The position numbers and the translations under genes were made by a program. Of a stretch of DNA of 41,967 bases, positions 1-41,843 are shown piece after piece. Origin of the DNA: Prevotella sp. (GTDB taxonomy: Bacteria; Bacteroidota; Bacteroidia; Bacteroidales; Bacteroidaceae); assembly GCA_017545045.1 (NCBI GenBank), contig JAFYDA010000044.1:1-41967 (forward strand), written 5' to 3'. The notes beneath the pieces were generated by a model. That model was not told where the DNA came from. It worked only from the letters and a program-made list of their open reading frames with translations, and searched no databases. Within the stretch, counting starts at the first letter, position 1, and each line of letters begins with the position of its first letter.

Positions 1-521
1 CGGCGTTCTTGGCGCACAGCACGCGCTCCGAACATTGCAGCACCAGCGCAGGCGGCGTGACACCGAAGATGCGCTGATAACGCTCCTTGCCCTCGGCAAA
101 CGTGGTCTTCAGGAACAGGCACAGCAGTCCGTCCGTTGGCAGCAGTCGCAGGGCGTGCAGCACGTACTCCGTGGCGTACTTGTAGGGCGGATTGGTAACG
201 ATGGCCGTGCAGCCCTCGGGCATCTCCTTCTGCTCGAAAAAGTTTACCCCCCCCCATTCCGTAGCCACGGTCCACGAGGTCGGTGCTTACCACGTGGTAG
301 CCGCGCTGCCGTAACCGCTCACTCAGACAGCCGCTGCCGCACGACGGTTCCCACACTCCCTGCGGCAACTCCACATAGGGGTAGTCGCACAGCAGGTCGA
401 TGGTCACGGGGTCGGTGGCGTAGAAGTCGTCCGTCTCGCGCTCCTTCTCCGTATGGTTCGATGCGCCCAGCGTCTTGAAGATGCTGTTGCCGTTACCGTT
501 CCAGTCTTTATTGGTGCTCAT
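1..521 (-). pseudogene. DNA adenine-type methyltransferase, frameshifted at a 9-G tract, cut by window edge
   Basis: Reading from ATG at 521 the product starts MSTNKDWNGNGNSIF and contains a SAM-binding motif I (EPSCGSG, about residues 65-71). It reaches DRGYGMGG at the G tract (plus-strand C9 at 247-255). With 9 G the frame leaves the conserved one. With 8 G it would continue as VNFFEQKEMPEG and then the amino-methyltransferase motif IV NPPY. This NPPY-type family, usually with DRGYGxGGxxF at this point, is common in Bacteroidales phages, so I take the frame after the tract to be the real one. The enzyme would methylate DNA, probably adenine, to protect phage DNA or mark it. The start overlaps the end of the 244-aa gene by 14 bases, so the two are translationally coupled. 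The gene is truncated at the left edge. The extra base could be a sequencing error, a dead gene or a phase-off state. Confidence 0.75.
247..255. repeat. Homopolymer C9/G9 tract inside methyltransferase gene
   Basis: Nine consecutive C on the plus strand (G9 in the coding sense) lie exactly where the methyltransferase frame breaks. Removing one base restores the frame. Mononucleotide G tracts of 8-11 are classic slipped-strand phase-variation sites in other bacteria. A second C9 lies at 41336-41344. Confidence 0.9.
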
Positions 522-19160: not shown

Positions 19161-19734
19161 ACACGCGGTTATACCTCAAAGTCGCGTGCGGATTAAAGTT
19201 CACCGCCTTCAGCTCATACCCTTTCGTCCCCCATTTCCAAAAAAGAAACTGGTGGCGATAGAGCCGCCGGACGGCGATCGCCACGCTGTCCTTGACGCTA
19301 TACGAAAGCCGGGGAGCATCATACCAAAACTCAGCCCACGCATCCTTGTAGTGGAGCGGAGCCTGCGGTGTGGTATCGACGGGCGCGAGATACACCGTGT
19401 CGCGGATGACGGTGCCCGACTGCCTGAAGGCCGACAACTCCCGCACCTTCACGCCGAGGTCGTTAAGCAACGCCCGGTCGTTGTCCGAGAGCACCGACGA
19501 CAGCTTTTCAACCAACCGCACCTGTTGCGTCACCACTTCCACGGTGTCGCGGATGGTGTCCCGAACCAACGGAACGTGCCCCTGTTGCCGCGCCAGTTCC
19601 TCGCGCAAGGCGGCATTCTCCTGCTTGATGATGTCCGCACCCGTGAACGTGACGTAGCACGACCGGGCAACGAGAACAATGAATGCCACGGCTGCAATCC
19701 GCGCCGCCCATTCCAAAAGTCTTTCTTTGTCCAT
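19144..19734 (-). CDS. Membrane-anchored coiled-coil protein, spanin-like (196 aa)
   Basis: An N-terminal hydrophobic segment (residues about 10-30, AARIAAVAFIVLVARSCYVT) is followed by a coiled coil (IIKQENAALREELARQQGHV) and a long exported part with repeated DTV segments (RDTIRDTVEVV and RDTVYLAPVDTT). This layout is like DUF6549-type Bacteroidales phage proteins and like i-spanins, which fuse inner and outer membranes during lysis. I cannot see an o-spanin partner. The gene follows the DUF4376 gene after 3 bases and overlaps the next by 17. Confidence 0.7.
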   Translation of the reverse strand: MDKERLLEWAARIAAVAFIVLVARSCYVTFTGADIIKQENAALREELARQQGHVPLVRDTIRDTVEVVTQQVRLVEKLSSVLSDNDRALLNDLGVKVRELSAFRQSGTVIRDTVYLAPVDTTPQAPLHYKDAWAEFWYDAPRLSYSVKDSVAIAVRRLYRHQFLFWKWGTKGYELKAVNFNPHATLRYNRVYAKEK

Positions 19735-19737
19735 AAT

Positions 19738-20268
19738 TTAAAAACTTAACTTTGAAGGATAATCCGTTGTATAGTCATAACCCTCGACCGCCTCGATGCT
19801 GTCAAGGCCGTTGATGGCCGCGCGGTGGCTTTCAGTAACGTTGAGCGCATCCGCCGCATACACCTCAAGGGCAGTGAGCATCTGGTACCAGGCATTGATG
19901 GGGAACGTGTATTGAACACCGTTGAACCACTTGCTGGCACTCTCTCTGCCCATTGTGTAGCAGGCATCCAATGAAATCCTAAGCTGTTGCCTTGTCGGTG
20001 CATCAAGCCACATTGACACGCCGCCGATGGTGAACCCGTTGACGGCTTCCGACGCGTCGTATGCCTCCAGCTCGGCAATCTTCGCCGCCTTCGCCCGCTC
20101 AAGAAGTTCCTCTTGCGTAGGCTCCGGCTCATGCCATTCCTCAAACCCCCACGCGCTTAACTGTTCCTCACTGGGCACCCCGCTGAACAGCGAGCCGCCT
20201 ACAACACGGGTCATGCTCTGGCCTTCCGTGTACCACTCGCCCGTCGTTTGGTTTTGGTATTTCTTCAT
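19738..20268 (-). CDS. DUF4376-like tail-fibre-associated protein (176 aa)
   Basis: Residues about 63-130 (AKIAELEAYDASEAVNGFTI, then MWLDAPTRQQLRISLDACYT) match the DUF4376 pattern KxxxIExYDxSxAVNxF...WLDxxTR, found in phage tail-fibre-linked proteins. N-terminal 55 residues are a small separate segment (MKKYQNQTTGEWYTEGQSM). It lies right after the lectin-like protein and before the spanin-like protein in one tightly packed cluster. It likely belongs to the adsorption structure, as an accessory or chaperone of the fibre. Function of DUF4376 itself is not known. Confidence 0.8.
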   Translation of the reverse strand: MKKYQNQTTGEWYTEGQSMTRVVGGSLFSGVPSEEQLSAWGFEEWHEPEPTQEELLERAKAAKIAELEAYDASEAVNGFTIGGVSMWLDAPTRQQLRISLDACYTMGRESASKWFNGVQYTFPINAWYQMLTALEVYAADALNVTESHRAAINGLDSIEAVEGYDYTTDYPSKLSF

Positions 20269-20277
20269 ATTATCATT

Positions 20278-20855
20278 TTATTTATCAGGTCCAACAATAA
20301 AGGCTCCCGTTCCCTCGTTTCCATACAATGCACCGCTTACTTTGTCGTACATATATCCAATATTCCCGACGCGCACGGGAATCAGGTCAAAAACCTTTCC
20401 ATTAGCATTCTTTACATAAAAACTCATAAATTGAGTAGGTGAACCATTATTACAAAAGATTGTAATTGTAGTGACCGCCCTTGTCAAAGGTCTCGATAAT
20501 TCACTGAATGTTCCGTTAAACGTCACTCCCGTGGTTGAAACCTCCCAACTGCTAACAACATTCAAAGGAGGCTTCATATATTGCGTTTCATTCACTCTCC
20601 CCATTCCTGTATTAAAAACTATCACCGATGAAAGAGAGCCGTACTTCATTATGTCAATCTCGGATCTTGGATTTGACTCGACAATTCTTTTCCTTCCAGT
20701 GTACTCTCCAGGGTTCAGTTCACCGCCAACTGCTGCATAATCTCCTACAGCAAAACTAACAGGCAATGTGATATACTGCGTACCTGTGCTTTCAAGGTAT
20801 TCCACCTCCGCATCGTAGGGCAGCTTTTTCACTCCCCCCATATATCGTCTCCTCA

Positions 20856-20859
<4 letters not shown>
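20278..20859 (-). CDS. Lectin-like tail tip/receptor-binding protein (193 aa)
   Basis: The pattern [16 protein letters not shown] near residue 18-33 and the end [20 protein letters not shown] are hallmarks of concanavalin-A/LamG-like phage proteins of the gut, which are thought to bind glycans. The start is MMRRRYMGG, overlapping the end of the collagen fibre gene by four bases, so it is translationally coupled to it. The nucleotide composition is more AT-rich than in the genes either side, a sign of replacement by recombination. It is a good candidate for the host-specific tip carried by the fibre before it. Confidence 0.75.
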
Positions 20860-22588
<1,729 letters not shown>

Positions 22589-22589
<1 letters not shown>

Positions 22590-22786
22590 TACTTATATAC
22601 CAAGAAATAAACCAGTTTGTTCTTAACTGCACTGAATACAATCGAGAGCACGTTGTGCCCGTTGCAGAAGTCGTCGAGCACGTCGTTGACGGTCCCATCG
22701 GCGGCTTCCTCCATCGTGAAGGTGAAGGTGTGCTGCCTGACGCCGTGACGGCTGACGGCTGTCTTTATCTTTCCTGTGATGTCCAT
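22589..22786 (-). CDS. Unknown small protein (65 aa)
   Basis: The reading frame ([20 protein letters not shown]) overlaps the start of the collagen fibre gene by one base at the ATGA-type junction. The C-terminus is hydrophobic ([18 protein letters not shown]). Its position right before the fibre suggests a small accessory protein. No family is recognised, and it could also be a translated leader. Confidence 0.55.
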
Positions 22787-22819
22787 GATGACGCTACGCT
22801 AAATGATAGATGACAAATG

Positions 22820-22863
22820 ATAAATCTAAAAAAGGAGTTTGGGAGTTTAGGAGTTCTGGAGTT
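22820..22863. repeat. Dispersed GGAGTTTAGGAGT-type repeat
   Basis: GGAGTTTGGGAGTTTAGGAG-type sequence repeats three times in about 40 bases between the DUF5675 gene and the 65-aa gene. I associate such motifs with host-type (Prevotella-like) short repeats. It contains no gene. Confidence 0.5.
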
Positions 22864-22884
22864 TAGACGTTACTGATGGCGGCA

Positions 22885-22953
22885 GCAAATTGCCACTTCG
22901 TTCTCGCTAATCGCTCGCGATACCTTCGGCATTCTTCACTCTTCACTCTTCAC
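22885..22953. repeat. Dispersed repeat copy A (matches 41429-41490)
   Basis: A 63-base stretch (22885-22947) beginning GCAAATTGCCACTTCG and ending CTTCACTCTTCACT is almost identical to 41429-41490 (about three differences). Inverted pieces (ATCGCTCGCGAT) suggest a stem. It lies right after the stop of the DUF5675 gene. The second copy lies in the broken methyltransferase remnant. Confidence 0.85.
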
Positions 22954-23445
22954 TTAGAGGGGGGCTCCCACCGTCACCCAAATCTCCTCCCCCCGCTCAT
23001 CAGCCGCCATCAATATCTTACAAACATATTCAAACATCTCCTTCGTCTTCGTCAACGCCCCCTTGATAGTATTCAACCCAGTCAATAGGCAACCGGCACT
23101 CATCCCCGCAGTGGCAACGTCGGTTTTCAGGTCGCCAGCGTGGAAGAGAATGCCGTCAAAGCCAGGAACGGCAAGAACCCGCGGGAGCCGACCCTTGCAA
23201 AAGTCCATGTAGTACTTCTTCAAAGAAAACTTCGGGCTCACGACCTTCATCGTCACCCGGTACCGACCCGAGGGAATGGCCGTCTTAGACTTCACCTTCA
23301 ACGACCGTATCTGCGCCAGCGACATCCCTTTGTGCAACCCACGGTCCTTGTCTTCAATGATATTGCACACCCAATCCCCATCTATAAAAAGATTGGAAAT
23401 CGTGTACGTCCCCTTCTTATACTTTCTGTCAACCTTCAATTCCAT
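22954..23445 (-). CDS. DUF5675 protein, probable lysis enzyme (163 aa)
   Basis: The start ATG 23445 gives MELKVDRKYKKGTYTISNLF, typical for DUF5675. The signature segments IPSGRYRVTM (about 70-80) and FDGILFHAGDLKTDVATAGM are present, with a conserved His and the Cys in SAGCLLTG. This layout (His, then SxGC) is like L,D-transpeptidase-related domains and DUF5675 genes usually sit beside the holin, so a peptidoglycan-linked lysis role is likely. I cannot prove catalysis. It overlaps the end of the holin by 17 bases. The longer 5' extension is not used because MELKV is preceded by a purine-rich leader. A truncated copy of its first 11 codons occurs at 24299-24331. Confidence 0.75.
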   Translation of the reverse strand: MELKVDRKYKKGTYTISNLFIDGDWVCNIIEDKDRGLHKGMSLAQIRSLKVKSKTAIPSGRYRVTMKVVSPKFSLKKYYMDFCKGRLPRVLAVPGFDGILFHAGDLKTDVATAGMSAGCLLTGLNTIKGALTKTKEMFEYVCKILMAADERGEEIWVTVGAPL

Positions 23446-23932
23446 TTTCCTTCTTTTTAAGTTCGTCGAGTTCCACATCGAAGTGCCTCTCCGTCTTGTC
23501 TATCATAATCTTTTGCAGCGTGCGCCACAGCCGTCCCTCGTTGTCGCTGCGGCACGACGAGTTATTCTCCAACGCCGACCACATCTGCTCAAAGAGGATG
23601 ACCCCCGTGGCGATGTATGACAGGGGAACGGACACATGCACAAACACATACTTCTCGGCAAGGAAAGCTAAGAGAATGAGCACCAGCCTCTCCGGGATGG
23701 TCTTTCTGACCACCTTACCGAAGGCGAACGAGGTGAACTTCGCTTCGTGCCGTTTCGTCTTGTCAGGATAGGCGGCCTTCACCCGTTTGTCTAATTGCCA
23801 CGCCGTATAAGCATCGTAGAGGATGAACGCCACGGCCACCACAATCAGCGGAAAGGCAGGCGAGAACACGCCGCACAGCCAGCCGACGCAAGCGCCGAGA
23901 AAAAGCCACACAATCTTTAAATACTCAATCAT
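23429..23932 (-). CDS. Phage holin (167 aa)
   Basis: Residues 1-40 are hydrophobic (MIEYLKIVWLFLGACVGWLC and AFPLIVVAVAFILYDAYTAW). A second hydrophobic stretch (ERLVLILLAFLAEKYVFVHV, then PLSYIATGVILFEQMW) is separated by a basic cytoplasmic loop (DKTKRHEAKF). A charged soluble tail follows (RHFDVELDELKKKENG). This is the layout of holins found in Bacteroidales phages. It would permeabilise the inner membrane to release or activate the lysis enzyme. The 3' end overlaps the DUF5675 gene by 17 bases, a typical holin-endolysin pair. Confidence 0.8.
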   Translation of the reverse strand: MIEYLKIVWLFLGACVGWLCGVFSPAFPLIVVAVAFILYDAYTAWQLDKRVKAAYPDKTKRHEAKFTSFAFGKVVRKTIPERLVLILLAFLAEKYVFVHVSVPLSYIATGVILFEQMWSALENNSSCRSDNEGRLWRTLQKIMIDKTERHFDVELDELKKKENGIEG

Positions 23933-24036
23933 TCTTCTTTCTTTTTAATTAAACATCGGCAGGGGAAACGGGTGCCGACTCCGCTTTTGCTCACTGAGCA
24001 TTGCCCTTTCTCCGACGGCGGCAACACCTTCCCCCG

Positions 24037-24068
24037 AAAAAGCCCCCGCACCATCGCGGCGGGGAGGC
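24037..24068 (-). terminator. Terminator of the 1620-aa fibre unit
   Basis: On the minus strand GCCTCCCCGC (24068-24059) pairs with GCGGGGGC (24049-24042), a very GC-rich stem, followed by TTTTT (24041-24037). It closes the fibre transcript and opens the holin unit. Confidence 0.75.
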
Positions 24069-24198
24069 CGCAGTAAAACAATCAATAAAAAACCTAACCT
24101 TTTGCTACTAATCTTTGAAAACTAACTTATAAAACAATCATCTGCATTTGAGTAAGAAATAGAGGCTTCCGAACCGTCGCGGCGGGGAGGTGCAATGT
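24050..24198. repeat. Degenerate direct repeats in the 23933-24331 gap
   Basis: CGCGGCGGGGAGG occurs twice, at about 24055-24067 and 24178-24190, and AAAAACCTA.. occurs near 24089 and 24222 with a similar spacing. The gap 23933-24331 (399 bases) has no protein-like ORF. It holds the terminator, these repeats and the duplicated RBS/start cassette. Confidence 0.4.
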
Positions 24199-24280
24199 CT
24201 GCGCCGTGCCTCATACTAAAAACCTATGTACCTAAACCTTTGAAGATATGAATTTCTCATCCATTTACCCTGAATAAAGT

Positions 24281-24346
24281 CCATATCAACTAACCTCCTT
24301 CTTGTACTTCCTGTCAACCTTCAGTTCCATATCAACTAACCTCCTT
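24281..24346 (-). repeat. Duplicated RBS/start cassette with orphan start of DUF5675
   Basis: AAGGAGGTTAGTTGATATGG occurs twice in the minus sense, at 24346-24327 and 24300-24281. The first copy starts MELKVDRKYKKEVS (24330-24286), whose first 11 residues match the DUF5675 start, then stops. The second copy starts a 22-codon ORF (MDFIQGKWMRNSYLQRF). The last codons of the fibre gene (MKEVS) come from the same cassette. Confidence 0.7.
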
Positions 24347-27300
24347 CATTTCTTCAGTCAACGCAAGCCCAAGCATCTCTTGCCCGTAGGTGGTAGGATG
24401 CACTCCAGAACCCAACAGATGCTTACTATTAGTAGAAGCAGTCACTATCACATTATTTGAATAAGTAATAACACAGGTATGTTCCTCAGGGCTTACAGCT
24501 TCACCAGTACCATTCACTTTCTTGGTGGCAGTACAACTGACAGGATTGCCTGGCGTATATCCTTGAGAATATATCAACTTGTCAGTACTGGGATTAAGCT
24601 GGTAAACATCAACATCACCACCTTCAACAGCTGGCCTTATAGGATTAAGCAAGAAATAAGTGGAATATGCCTTTTTCTCCACTCCATCTTCATAAACCCT
24701 GACAACTATTGTCAACGCTATCGGATATTTCAAGACAACACCCTCCTTAACGGTGATGGTCAATTTCTCCCTGGTGATTGATAAACCGCCAACTACCTCC
24801 GTTTCATCGGAAACGGCAAACTTGAAAAACCGTTTGATACCAGTTCCATAATCGGCATCAATGTATGTGTTCCCAACCTTGCACTGAACATTCCTCGTGT
24901 AACCGTCAAAGTTGATATTCTTACTGACAACGGGAGAACTTGAAGAACTGGTATTTTCCTTTTCCCAAACAGTTTGGGAAAGATAGGTTTCAAACACATA
25001 TTTATCATTACCATTGATACCCTGCACTTTGCCCTCGTAATCACAAACCAGACTGCCAACCTTGTTGGTAAGGTCAGTGACAACACTCAGACCTGCGCTC
25101 CATGACTTAGCAGCCACATTAGGATAAATAACAGGGATAGTCTTTATGTCAACAACCTCTTCACCATGATACAAGGCAAAGGTAAGGGCTTCCTTTACAG
25201 TAGTCACATCAATGGCATTGGTGTAATCAACCTCCTTTTCACGATTGGGGTCTGCTCCATCCTGAGTCTTCACATAAAGCCTCGTAATGGGACTGACAAT
25301 ATCAAAAGTCTTCCAAATGTCAATAATAGGGATATTCCAAAGAGCAGACAATGTTTCAAAGGCACTCTTGCCATTGGCATAGTCAATACTCGTACTCAAC
25401 AGGAATGCAATTCTCGCCTTTGAGTTCAACGAATATATCTTATCCATCAAGAACAGCAACGCACCTATAAAAGTAGTCCTGTGGTCGGCAAAGCTGCTAC
25501 CATCAGTATAACGCCATTCACTGGGATAAAAAGCATTCCAGTCGGAAAGGGAATACTTGCCAGCATTGTTGCCGACAACATCTAAAACCCACAAATCAGC
25601 ATCAGCATTCTCTTGGGTAATAATATGCTCCCATGTCCAATAATACTTGTTATATACGCCACCGGGAACATAATAGCCATCAGGCAGGGCATCGGAAGGC
25701 TTCATGTTTTGACTTGCTTTCCCCTCGGCAATAGCATTCAGATATTCGGCAACAGATAAACAAGAGGAACCGAACTTGTAAGGATAAAGCACACCGTCTG
25801 ATTCCTCGGCAACAATAGACATGCCAGGAACACTGGTCTGAACTAAATTAAAGCCAAGCTTCTTTGCTGCAATATAAGGATAAGCAGCATCGGCAGCACT
25901 GCCAAAGGGAATAGAAGTGCCAAGCCACACAACCTTCTTGCCTCTCCAATGACTTTTCTCCAGAGTCCTCGTAACTCTTATACTGACCGCTATCTCAGGA
26001 GAATTGGCAGTGTAATAATGGAAATACTTGGCAAACGCCGTGGCTTTGAACTTCAACACATAAGGAACACCAGCCTGTACGGATATATTGGGAAGATTCT
26101 GAACAATATACCAGGGATGAGTGGCAACACCTGTTTTAGTCGTGGTAAGATATATTATGCCCAAATTCACAGCACTTGGAGATACAATAGTCACTTCATA
26201 GTCATAACCTTTCTCAAAGTAACATTCAATCCACCTTGAATTGGCAGAAGACACATCATTCTCAACAAGCAGCTCAGTTTTATGGTCTTCATCATACAAT
26301 TCATCAACCTCCTCACCCAAAGCATCTATGGCAGCCTTAGACTTTTCTGTAATAGTTTCGACAGTTACAGTAAAAGCAACCTTGGCATTTGTTGCATAAT
26401 GTAAATAAACAGCATCTCCACCAGGGACAAACTCAAACTCAAATTTGCCATCAACAACATAAACACGACCTGGATAAGAAACACCCTCTGAAATACCTAT
26501 ATAGTCAATCTTATTCCTGTTGGAATCACAGGAATATACATTCATCAAACCAAAAGTCGTTGGATAAACATACTCTGTATCTGGGCCAGTTCCATCAGCA
26601 GTTATGGATACTTTGCATAATGAACCTTTCTTAAATGTTATAGGCACATATATTGAATTATCGCCCGACACACCAGTGGCAGATGTTTCTTCAGACTGAG
26701 TTTCTATATCAAACAACTCTTCATTCAGTTCTTCAATAGTATCTTTCAATTCGTCTATATCGCCACTAATAGCATCAATATCTTCATCTAACGCCCCAAT
26801 GCTGGCTTTCAGTTGGTCAATGGTACTTATAGCAGCAATCTTAATGGTATAATTGACACCAGTAGATGGAACATTCTGATAAAAATGCAAGAAAGCAGCA
26901 TTGCCGGTAGCCTTGAAAGTGGTTACATAAGGTTTTCCTGACTGGATGGACGTATTGCTTAAAGTATCAACAACACCTTCTGCGGTCCTATTCTCAGATG
27001 TAAATACCAGGTTAAGCGTTACATCGGCATTTGTATCTATTTGAATAAGGTAATCAACACCTTCAACAAATCCAAAAGGAATCCACTGGCTTCTTGTATT
27101 AGATGTAACACTTATCTCTATGGGATTCGTATCATAAAGAAGGCCACTTTCAATAACATACAATTCACCGTTAAACGCGGCAGTTGAACGGGAAAAAATA
27201 TGAAAACAAAGGGCATCCACATCACCAGTAACTGTGAATGACACCACCTTGGATACACCATCTTTTATGACAATGTCATCAAGGTCCTGTATCTTGACAC

Positions 27301-40480: not shown

Positions 40481-40723
40481 TTATGTGTATTCTATCATTA
40501 GCCATACTTGCGAAGATGCGTCGATGCGAGTGGTGACGGGAAATGGAAACACGCCGTCGAGGGTGTCATAGACGAAGTGGCGACAATCGAACGCACAACC
40601 GCACTTGCCCTTGCAGGCATCCATCATGTAGGGAATGGCATCGTGGAGCGATGTGGTGTGACCGCCATAGATACCCTCCTTCATTCGGAGCTTCTTCGGT
40701 TTGTTGACTCGTTTATACTTCAT
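40481..40723 (-). CDS. Unknown small protein (80 aa), Cys-containing
   Basis: MKYKRVNKPKKLRMKEGIYG at the start is very basic, then KGKCGCAFDCRHFVYD (three Cys and a His, about residues 39-51) could hold metal. It ends SSQVWLMIEYT. It starts inside the end of the 47-aa ORF through an 11-base overlap (ATGAAGTATAA). The ending LMIEYT is like the VLIEYED/VFIEYED endings of its neighbours. No family is recognised. Confidence 0.65.
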   Translation of the reverse strand: MKYKRVNKPKKLRMKEGIYGGHTTSLHDAIPYMMDACKGKCGCAFDCRHFVYDTLDGVFPFPVTTRIDASSQVWLMIEYT

Positions 40724-40856
40724 ATTCTATCAATACTACTTGTCCTCTGTCCGACATGGGGTTTGCGCAGATGCAGAACGCCCACGGCTTGATACTGACC
40801 GATGGTTTGTCGCGGTCGCCTACCAACTGCATGGCTCGTCGAGATTTAATCTTCAT
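40713..40856 (-). CDS. Unknown small protein (47 aa)
   Basis: MKIKSRRAMQLVGDRDKPSV... to ...VVLIEYEV. It starts within the last codons of the 70-aa ORF (ATGAAGATTAA overlap) and its end contains the start of the 80-aa ORF (ATGAAGTATAA overlap). The 20-base stretch AGTATTGATAGAATATGAAG is the same at both of its ends. Basic N-terminus, no domain seen. Confidence 0.6.
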   Translation of the reverse strand: MKIKSRRAMQLVGDRDKPSVSIKPWAFCICANPMSDRGQVVLIEYEV

Positions 40857-41058
40857 ATTCTATCAATACTGCTGTCAGCGGGTATATCTGGCCGGGAAAC
40901 AAGTTCTTGTATGAAATGTTAGCCGAGCGGGTGGTTACGGCCCTGCAAACGCCCTCCTGCCATTCATTGACAGGAATGAGCGTCTTGCCGTCGGCCTTGC
41001 GGACGTGGCTCGACAGGACGGGCTTCGCTGATATGTGGTTCGGGTCGGGTGCTGACAT
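40846..41058 (-). CDS. Unknown small protein (70 aa)
   Basis: MSAPDPNHISAKPVLSSHVR..., with a middle EWQEGVCRAVTTRSANISY and the end LTAVLIEYED. It overlaps the next ORF by 11 bases at ATGAAGATTAA. The alternative frame MKIKRYVS... from 41074 gives a short proline- and arginine-rich sequence, so this frame looks better. A one-base frame change near 41058 would join MKIKRYV to SAPDPNHIS, which may be the original start. Confidence 0.6.
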   Translation of the reverse strand: MSAPDPNHISAKPVLSSHVRKADGKTLIPVNEWQEGVCRAVTTRSANISYKNLFPGQIYPLTAVLIEYED

Positions 41059-41149
41059 AACGCTTAATCTTCATATTGCATTTCATGCGATAATCCTCAC
41101 GCTCGGCATAACTGATGCAAGCATCACACTGCTCTCGCTTAATCTTCAT
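40964..41149 (-). CDS. Unknown small ORF (61 aa), low confidence
   Basis: MKIKREQCDACISYAEREDY... has a CxxC and a second Cys soon after (MKCN), then a tail that overlaps the 70-aa ORF in another frame and looks non-protein-like. It begins within the preceding ORF's end (VFIEYED) by the ATGAAGATTAA junction. Possibly only the first 25 residues are genuine. Confidence 0.35.
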   Translation of the reverse strand: MKIKREQCDACISYAEREDYRMKCNMKIKRYVSTRPEPHISEARPVEPRPQGRRQDAHSCQ

Positions 41150-41412
41150 ATTCTATAAACACATATTGCGATGTTTCGCCTGCCATCAGCGTTCCTGCTA
41201 TGCGTCCACGATCCTTGACCCTTGCCCGTCGCAGTTCGCTTTCGGGATAGGCGGCATCAAACACGCCGTTGGGGTCGCACTCGATGTAGCCCTTTGCCGT
41301 GGCCTGACGGACGCGGAGTACGAGGTGATTTTCTGCCCCCCCCCACTACTTCGAGGAATGGCCGTCGGTCGGTCTTGAACCGCTTTGCCTTCAGTGTCGA
41401 TGGTCGTACCAT
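41139..41412 (-). pseudogene. Small ORF frameshifted at 9-G tract (90 aa if restored)
   Basis: From ATG 41412 the product runs MVRPSTLKAKRFKTDRRPFL, EVVGG, then loses frame at the G9 tract (plus-strand C9, 41336-41344). With 8 G it reads AENHLVLRVRQATAKGYIEC... to ...SQYVFIEYED at 41139, with the segment YPESELRRARVKDRGRIAGT. This segment resembles the end of phage C5-methyltransferases (SxTRRGRVxxG), so it may be the detached C-terminal part of the broken methyltransferase. The break is the same direction and size as in the methyltransferase at 1-521. Confidence 0.55.
41336..41344. repeat. Homopolymer C9/G9 tract
   Basis: Nine C on the plus strand at the frameshift in the small ORF next to the methyltransferase remnant. 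Same length and effect as the tract at 247-255. Confidence 0.9.
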
Positions 41413-41843
41413 ATTTGTCTGTGCGGTAGCAAATTGCCACTTCGTTCTCGCTGTCGCTCGCGATACCTTCGGCATTCTTCACTCTTCACTTTCGCAAGAA
41501 TATCGTCGATTTCTTGCGAACTGGGCTTGTGGTCGGTGGTGACGTAGATCATCTGTTCGCTCTCGTTCTTCTGTAGGAAGGCGGTGACGCTTTCTGGTTT
41601 CAAAAAGTAACGAGAATCGGCATCGGGTTCGAGCACGTCGGCGATGGTGCGGGTCAGCGGCACGGGCTGGGGCCAGGGGAAGGCGTGGGGCAGTCCCATG
41701 TCCCGTCGCCACGAAAGACAGAACACTCGCTCACGGTTCTGCGGCACACCGAAGTCCTTGGCGTTGAGCACGCGGTAGTCGCTGTCGTAGCCGAGGTCGC
41801 TGAGCACGCCGCGCCACTGGTCGAAGCCACTGCGGGACGGCAT
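41391..41843 (-). pseudogene. C5-cytosine DNA methyltransferase fragment (150 aa)
   Basis: The segment YRVLNAKDFGVPQNRERVFC matches motif VIII-type sequence of Dcm/C5 methyltransferases, followed by the family's variable region. The N-terminal SAM-binding region and the PCQ/ENV motifs are absent, so it cannot be active. It ends in host-type repeat sequence (SEECRRYRERQRERS) that supplies a false C-terminus. The start ATG 41843 is fortuitous. It seems to be a remnant of a modification gene interrupted by the repeat copy at 41429-41490 and by a deletion at its 5' end. Confidence 0.75.
41429..41490. repeat. Dispersed repeat copy B (matches 22885-22947)
   Basis: Begins GCAAATTGCCACTTCG and ends CTTCACTCTTCACT, nearly identical to copy A. 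It lies inside the methyltransferase fragment right after EIDDILAK and produces the junk C-terminus. Confidence 0.85.

Follow-up and report, generated by a model that had tools for sequence, protein, structure and literature searches.

Poly-G phase variation in Campylobacter phages was reportedly described by Sorensen et al. in Cell Rep in 2021. Excerpts from two papers describe such variation as affecting receptor binding (PMC11868660, PMC10579305), and an excerpt from the first also covers phase-variable methyltransferases and recombining type I recognition domains in bacteria (PMC11868660). Natural permuted cytosine-C5 (C5) methyltransferases are likewise known from an excerpted source, as is complementation between the parts of enzymes divided between motif VIII and the recognition domain (PMC5944983). 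Among the matches listed in a search of open-licence literature (titles and the beginnings of abstracts), there was no phage-encoded phase-variable methyltransferase and no stand-alone switched target recognition domain (TRD). Here we describe a tract of nine G residues (G9) in an adenine-type DNA methyltransferase gene at one end of a 41,967-nucleotide stretch of DNA from Prevotella sp. (contig JAFYDA010000044.1, assembly GCA_017545045.1), which was analyzed whole and is called the window below. We propose that the tract is a slipped-strand contingency site that switches a phage or prophage adenine DNA methyltransferase, and we put the probability of this reading at roughly 0.8. We also describe arrays of tract-bearing genes in related phages that we read, from their sequences, as multi-switch modification loci.

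Results

A G9 tract interrupts the adenine methyltransferase gene

The window contains two G9 tracts, the first of which lies in the methyltransferase gene:

247 to 255, minus strand: G9 tract 1, within the adenine methyltransferase gene; the plus strand reads C9
2 to 521, minus strand: adenine-type DNA methyltransferase of family PHROG 799, out of frame behind the tract and cut by the contig end
255 to 521 (front) and 2 to 253 (behind the tract, in another frame), minus strand: the two pieces of this methyltransferase, from translations and PHROG 799
41336 to 41344, minus strand: G9 tract 2, within a class-1 TRD-like cassette; the plus strand reads C9

Translation from the ATG at 521 reads MSTNKDW...DRGYGMGGG and then shifts frame, and the frame behind the tract reads GGVNFFEQ...NPPY. 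The PHROG 799 (DNA methyltransferase) profile matches the front piece at positions 185-269 and the rear piece at positions 271-350. Because the two matches adjoin at the tract, the frame break sits there. A preliminary description of the window had claimed an out-of-frame G9 in an adenine methyltransferase, and the two-frame translation, with PHROG 799 split exactly at the tract, bears this out. The profile match covers the catalytic region with the NPP motif, which places the gene in PHROG 799; TNPP(Y/F) is present in 12/12 rows of a family alignment (A1). No further break was found in the gene as far as the contig extends.

Tracts 1 and 2 are the only G or C runs of at least 7 in the window, and the remaining runs of at least 6 are all exactly 6; the earlier statement that these are the only two runs of this kind therefore stands. 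When 32 other genes of the window (12,405 codons) were shuffled synonymously, G/C runs of at least 9 numbered 0.08 per set, and a first-order Markov model predicted 0.22 per window; the observed number is 2. In the same 32 genes, GGG accounts for 84/873 glycine codons, and GGG-GGG encodes none of the 75 Gly-Gly pairs. A pure, long homopolymer inside coding sequence, in excess of chance, is one of the features expected of a gene that is phase-variable through a homopolymer or other simple sequence repeat (SSR). The metagenome-assembled genome (MAG, 2.36 Mb) has 8 distinct tracts of at least 8 G, 2 of them on this 42 kb contig. The other six are on contigs C45, C68, C75, C80 and C89 (L237-L243), some within long open frames.

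Tract length varies among close relatives and changes the frame

An IMG/VR pattern scan with the tract and its flanks gave four contigs (L114-L117). The tract lengths at this position, site A, are as follows:

Window: G9, out of frame
L115: G9, out of frame
L114: G8, in frame
L116: G8, in frame
L117: G7, out of frame, with a stop directly behind the tract

L115 (the same as L008) and L114 (the same as L009) are approximately 96% identical to the window in the adenine methyltransferase gene. Tract length at site A thus varies among close relatives and alters the frame, the behavior expected of an SSR phase-variable gene; the arrays described below behave likewise. In a further relative (L166), an in-frame G9 run occupies roughly this position, and another (L006) has the same motif without the tract. 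The second half of the enzyme, which contains the NPPY catalytic motif, would enter or leave the reading frame as the tract changes length, and the window would represent the out-of-frame state.

The same lengths bear on programmed recoding, in which a single DNA sequence would give both products through slippage of ribosomes or RNA polymerase on the G run. Such slippage can happen on long G runs, and the L115 frame read behind its G9 is open to the end of the gene. A fixed slip requires a fixed offset, yet all three phases (G7, G8 and G9) occur at site A, and array tracts vary too. We rejected programmed frameshifting because all three phases occur, and we consider it extremely unlikely. An open second frame is ordinary for the gene's own codons: it appeared in 17% of shuffles with those codons but in 0.3% of resamples with window codon usage, and we did not count it as a signal.

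We found that the sequence behind the tract is conserved as protein. Behind the tract, the ratio of nonsynonymous to synonymous substitution rates (dN/dS) was 0.10 for the window paired with L115 (each out of frame; 7 synonymous changes, 2 nonsynonymous). For the window and L117 it was 0.13. Ten pairs gave 0.06-0.13, except window/L114, where the value of 0.36 comes from 3 synonymous and 3 nonsynonymous changes. These ratios indicate purifying selection on the frame behind tract 1, also in a pair of which both members are out of frame. This is not what a merely dead gene would be expected to show. The ratio of 0.10 between two out-of-frame copies therefore argues against plain decay, in which a single frameshift at a mutable run would have turned the methyltransferase into a pseudogene. 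So do the lack of any other break and the in-frame state of L114 and L116, which have the same pure tract. The neighbouring C5 region of the window is degenerate and would fit decay, which we nevertheless regard as very unlikely for the adenine methyltransferase.

Tracts at other sites of the adenine methyltransferase family

Tracts were also found at two other sites of this gene family. At site B, before the VVSRDLIDRGYG motif, L110 and L111 have G9, L113 has G7 and the record of L251 has G8, all in frame. At site C, near the C-terminus, Prevotella sp. P2-180 has G10, out of frame, and L024 has G9, in frame. As scripted, split frames occurred in 4/13 distinct genes with a run of at least 7 and in 3/79 without one (Fisher p = 0.007). 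Correction by hand (the duplicate L116 removed, L162 moved because its run is outside the gene, and a false split in L144 discounted as a second gene) gave 4/11 and 2/80, and the p value belongs to the uncorrected counts. Most family genes with at least 8 G are intact. Two family members, L016 and L189, have a frame break and no G tract.

The front piece matched 6/398 genomes of the genus and the family alignment matched 9/399 genomes of the family, several of them weakly (own MAG included in both counts). A plasmid search with the adenine methyltransferase gave 3 distant matches only.

In one phage record (G783; L028 and L251, the latter at 19500-26000), G8/G9 tracts are present in an N6/N4 methyltransferase and a PAPS-reductase-domain protein, and another G-tract gene has a radical-SAM match below the Pfam cut-off. 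A Dam-family gene adjoins these tract-bearing genes and is itself without a G tract. The tract-bearing genes of L251 adjoin an adenine methyltransferase and a class-1 cassette. In L011 (1312-1808), the adenine methyltransferase ends shortly before the tract site and a tract-less class-1 cassette follows directly, possibly reflecting recombination between adenine methyltransferase and class-1 cassette genes.

Relatives carry tract arrays around a permuted C5 core

Runs of G8 were present in 13/17 phage records searched (18 loci given, two of them in one record) and were often clustered. In two records, G782 and G778, the clusters surround a C5 methyltransferase core. On both sides of such cores are small open reading frames (ORFs), mostly of about 45-85 codons and ending in variants of IEYE, which we call cassettes. 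The stop of one cassette often overlaps the ATG of the following one, and a G tract lies midway along many of them.

Compared with HhaI, the early part of the core corresponds to residues 271-315 (motifs IX and X; the blocks are weak when taken alone) and the later part to residues 55-201. HhaI residues 202-270, the recognition domain, have no counterpart, and little of the core follows motif VIII; this block comparison found no TRD within the core chain itself. From these matches, the array core is best described as a circularly permuted C5 methyltransferase, with motifs IX and X before I, IV, VI and VIII. Two further alignments (A2 and A4) gave the same permuted order.

An IMG/VR scan with the core alignment gave 12 loci. 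By a strict ending rule, each has 4 to 12 cassette ends, and each has 1 to 13 G/C tracts of at least 7; one locus (L259) is cut by a contig end. In the genus sample, 8/398 genomes had a core match at 1e-40. Three of these (G037, G201 and G335) match much of the core model and the other five only its later part; the G335 locus is identical to L267 over 8961 bases. No phage record covers 80% of the permuted core at a single place, and 15 records match it in part at 1e-20.

Some cores have a tract of their own, a poly-C at motif IX. It is C8 in L258-L261, with the frame open from the MIAK start; C7 in L277, with the frame not open from that start; and C9 in L263 (judged from length). L264 has C10 slightly further on, and its core is likewise not open from the start. 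The cores of the other loci have no tract at this position. Core dN/dS was 0.07-0.13 in four close pairs.

A different arrangement was seen in the Prevotella sp. P2-180 prophage record (G790, 83000-86500; L255). There the C5 methyltransferase is split into a part with motifs I-VIII and a part with motifs IX-X, and separate TRD-like ORFs lie between the two, one with a G9 tract out of frame. This is possibly an intermediate form.

Between near-identical arrays, frame changes fall in the tracts

We compared array loci that are 93-97% identical and come from independent assemblies. L261 and L263 have 199 mismatches in 6611 aligned positions, and 7/13 G/C tracts differ in length, including the core poly-C at motif IX. 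Of the other 7/14 gap events, three form one block within a cassette (net 6 bases) and four are short and outside ORFs (judged by context). L259, L260 and L277 are 93-95.5% identical to one another. Gaps fell in tracts in 4/4 cases for L259/L277, 6/9 for L260/L277 and 2/3 for L259/L260, and the rest are outside array ORFs by place. Each of the 7 tracts in these three loci varied in length in one pair or more. Judging from these alignments, frame-changing insertions and deletions are confined to the tracts, and the ORFs otherwise keep their frame.

Across the four pairwise comparisons, which share sequences and are not independent, a substitution interrupted 0/28 G/C runs of at least 7, and 19 of these runs differed in length. 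For A/T runs of at least 6, 15/27 were interrupted and 2 changed length. Frame could be called for 56/106 tracts of at least 7 G in the 12 loci, with 16 in frame and 40 out, so that most callable array tracts are out of frame; the calls exclude L259, and some loci are near-identical, so that the counts are not independent. Some individual calls are doubtful: the tract of L277 at 7394 is doubtfully "in frame", that of L266 at 7739 was called out though its frame is open, and the class-1 cassette of L248/L262 was uncallable though open.

These comparisons also bear on sequencing or assembly error at long G runs, which would be worsened by position. The distance to the nearer contig end is 247 bases for tract 1 and approximately 620 for tract 2, at the opposite end; the C5 part near its contig end has other frame changes, L016 and L189 show that frames can break without a tract, and every length is an assembly consensus. 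Lengths differ, however, across several independent assemblies in which A/T runs rarely changed. In the same alignments the tracts were never interrupted; in the adenine methyltransferase family they arose at three sites, and most family genes with at least 8 G are intact. Errors would not account for pure tracts in exactly these genes, and we think error improbable as the general explanation.

Several points weigh against a contingency site in the adenine methyltransferase. Since tract lengths are consensus values, G-run errors are possible in individual cases. The dN/dS values are built on few changes in the closest pairs, and the ratio for window and L114 is higher than the others. Most distant homologues have no tract (80/91 distinct genes after hand correction, gathered around the window gene, so that the proportions are not population frequencies), and the tract is therefore not a fixed trait of the family. 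The C5 part of the window is truncated and has further frame breaks, and decay or contig-end error is possible there. On balance, slipped-strand phase variation of a phage adenine methyltransferase, as first suggested in the preliminary description, is well supported by the comparison (lengths 7, 8, 8 and 9 in four contigs, in and out of frame), by purifying selection behind the tract, and by tract-only frame changes between near-identical C5 loci.

Cassettes resemble recognition domains

Of 75 C5 ORFs that contain motif VIII, 17 matched a class-1 cassette profile at E ≤ 0.02 (15 of them at E < 0.001; some of the 17 are near-duplicates). All matches lie between motifs VIII and IX, the place of the recognition domain. 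A class-2 cassette matched 18/75, again all between motifs VIII and IX. L081, a canonical phage C5 enzyme, has two cassette types in tandem at this place, and similar motifs were seen by eye in a single chain before motif IX in Dulem virus 40 (GenBank PP511379). In PHROG 16427 and 8411, a class-1 cassette directly precedes motif IX. Altogether, 6/14 cassettes matched canonical C5 enzymes. Cassette parts behind tracts had dN/dS of 0.11, 0.11 and 0.06 in three close pairs. From their place, shared ending and partial homology, we infer that the cassettes may all be recognition domains.

Other results tell against this assignment. No match at 0.05 among canonical C5 enzymes was found for 8/14 cassettes, including the three intact ones of the window. 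A PDB search with the class-1 profile gave no methyltransferase (the sole hit, C3a, was at chance level), one with the class-2 cassette gave no match, and Pfam gave nothing above its cut-offs for eight cassettes. An AlphaFold2 model of the class-1 cassette had low confidence (mean predicted local distance difference test score, pLDDT, 49.7).

It is possible, for the arrays only, that the small ORFs are remnants of a multi-TRD C5 enzyme, or that they act alone (e.g., as decoys), without serving the core in trans. For several of them no in-frame copy was seen, for many no homologue was detectable among canonical enzymes, and Dulem virus 40 and L081 have these modules fused in a single chain. Against this, cassette parts behind tracts have dN/dS of about 0.1, the core is without a TRD of its own, stop-start junctions overlap, and in 12 loci the cassettes occupy the same position around the core. 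The excerpted account of complementation between parts of split C5 enzymes makes a core with separate recognition domains plausible. We give an even chance to the fuller proposal of a combinatorial phase-variable modification machine. It would consist of a TRD-less core (with a poly-C switch in some phages), trans-acting stand-alone recognition domains, many of them poly-G-switched, and, in several phages, a poly-G-switched adenine methyltransferase.

The second tract and the C5 remnant of the window

Tract 2 lies in what remains of a C5 locus at the far end of the window:

41391 to 41843, minus strand: open frame with the motif VIII end of a C5 methyltransferase core; matches PF00145 positions 123-249 only, with frame changes near its end
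41476 to 41489, minus strand: tandem heptamer GTGAAGA, two copies, at the site of a C5 frame change
41139 to 41335, minus strand: portion of the class-1 cassette behind tract 2, ENHLVLRVRQATAKGYIEC...VFIEYED
40846 to 41058, minus strand: small intact ORF of the cassette kind, 70 amino acids, ending VLIEYED, no tract
40713 to 40856, minus strand: small intact ORF of the cassette kind, 47 amino acids, ending VLIEYEV, no tract
40481 to 40723, minus strand: small intact ORF of the cassette kind, 80 amino acids, ending LMIEYT, no tract
40710 to 41166, minus strand: junction-repeat stretch, in which a cassette stop overlaps the ATG of the next cassette
40712-40740, 40845-40873 and 41138-41166, with a shorter copy at 41061-41077, minus strand: copies of the junction repeat

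The preliminary description had assigned tract 2 the same one-base excess as tract 1. The G9 at 41336-41344 is there, but the case is not simply a one-base excess: the surrounding C5 region changes frame at two or more other points (the heptamer duplication at 41476-41489 and another before the tract), and most of the catalytic gene is gone. The claim of phase variation holds only in part for this tract, because the gene is otherwise broken in the window. C5 catalytic motifs I, IV and VI were not found in the window, where the PF00145 match is limited to the positions listed above, and the array core alignment had no match in the MAG at 1e-40. The class-1 cassette that holds tract 2 seems to have lost its start, and the window's own C5 locus looks degenerate. 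Homologues of the ORF at 40481-40723 carry tracts, out of frame, in L257 (G10) and L262 (G9).

The sequence GTGAAGAGTGAAGAATGCC was found at 41471-41489 and at 22928-22946 of the window, the latter with a third copy of the heptamer. The frame change in the C5 remnant may therefore stem from a dispersed short repeat.

Phage context

The window is an entire contig (C123) of a MAG with 59% completeness. It has phage genes, with matches to a tape measure protein, a tail fibre and a DNA polymerase processivity factor. The MAG shares a genus group with genome G080, whose methyltransferase (L022, also L109) is that of Prevotella sp. P2-180 in sequence and contig position. On these grounds we infer that the phage is Prevotella-associated.

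A near-identity search with both halves of the window against 50,697 phage records gave a single weak match. A search for the continuation of its far end in 100 genomes gave short weak matches only, in 6 other genomes. A circular contig was considered and rejected: there is no terminal overlap, and, in contrast to homologues, the cut adenine methyltransferase gene is not continued at the opposite contig end.

Discussion

We suggest that tract lengths would change within one phage population and that in-frame copies of the adenine methyltransferase would methylate DNA. Related phages may extend the principle, pairing a TRD-less permuted C5 core with many TRD-like ORFs that have G or C tracts of their own. 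The small ORFs could supply the sequence specificity of the core in trans, and the benefit would be a varied modification pattern against host restriction. If the modules act in trans, those in frame would set specificity, giving a cheap route to many methylation patterns that face host restriction enzymes; if this is true, a dozen independent switches could give thousands of modification states from one phage lineage. A "broken" phage gene in a metagenome assembly can be one state of a switch.

Phage receptor-binding phase variation and bacterial methyltransferase phase variation appear to meet here, in switched phage modification genes with up to 13 tracts per locus. As excerpted, the Campylobacter phages likewise have hypermutable poly-G tracts that switch phage gene expression (PMC11868660, PMC10579305). 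They switch receptor-binding proteins, whereas in the Prevotella-associated phages described here the tracts lie in TRD-like ORFs and DNA methyltransferases, with many tracts to a locus.

For the C5 arrays, the closest likenesses are permuted and fused enzymes. Permuted or split C5 methyltransferases of the M.BssHII type likewise have motifs IX and X before I-VIII, to go by the excerpt (PMC5944983). Unlike these, the array core has no fused TRD, and its TRD-like parts are separate, multiple and often tract-bearing. The multi-TRD split C5 methylase of Dulem virus 40 (PP511379) and the L081 enzyme have related recognition modules in tandem before motif IX, but fused in one chain, unlike the separate array ORFs. 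The Dulem virus 40 stretch examined has no G or C run of at least 7.

Two bacterial systems, in the excerpted account, share parts of this design (PMC11868660). Type I restriction-modification systems likewise combine one catalytic part with several exchangeable recognition parts; their TRDs vary by DNA recombination, whereas here homopolymer tracts lie in separate ORFs of a C5 system. In phasevarions, too, repeat tracts switch a methyltransferase. Phasevarions are bacterial genes that act on host regulons, whereas the genes described here appear to be phage-borne and, in relatives of the window, have separate tracts for the recognition modules.
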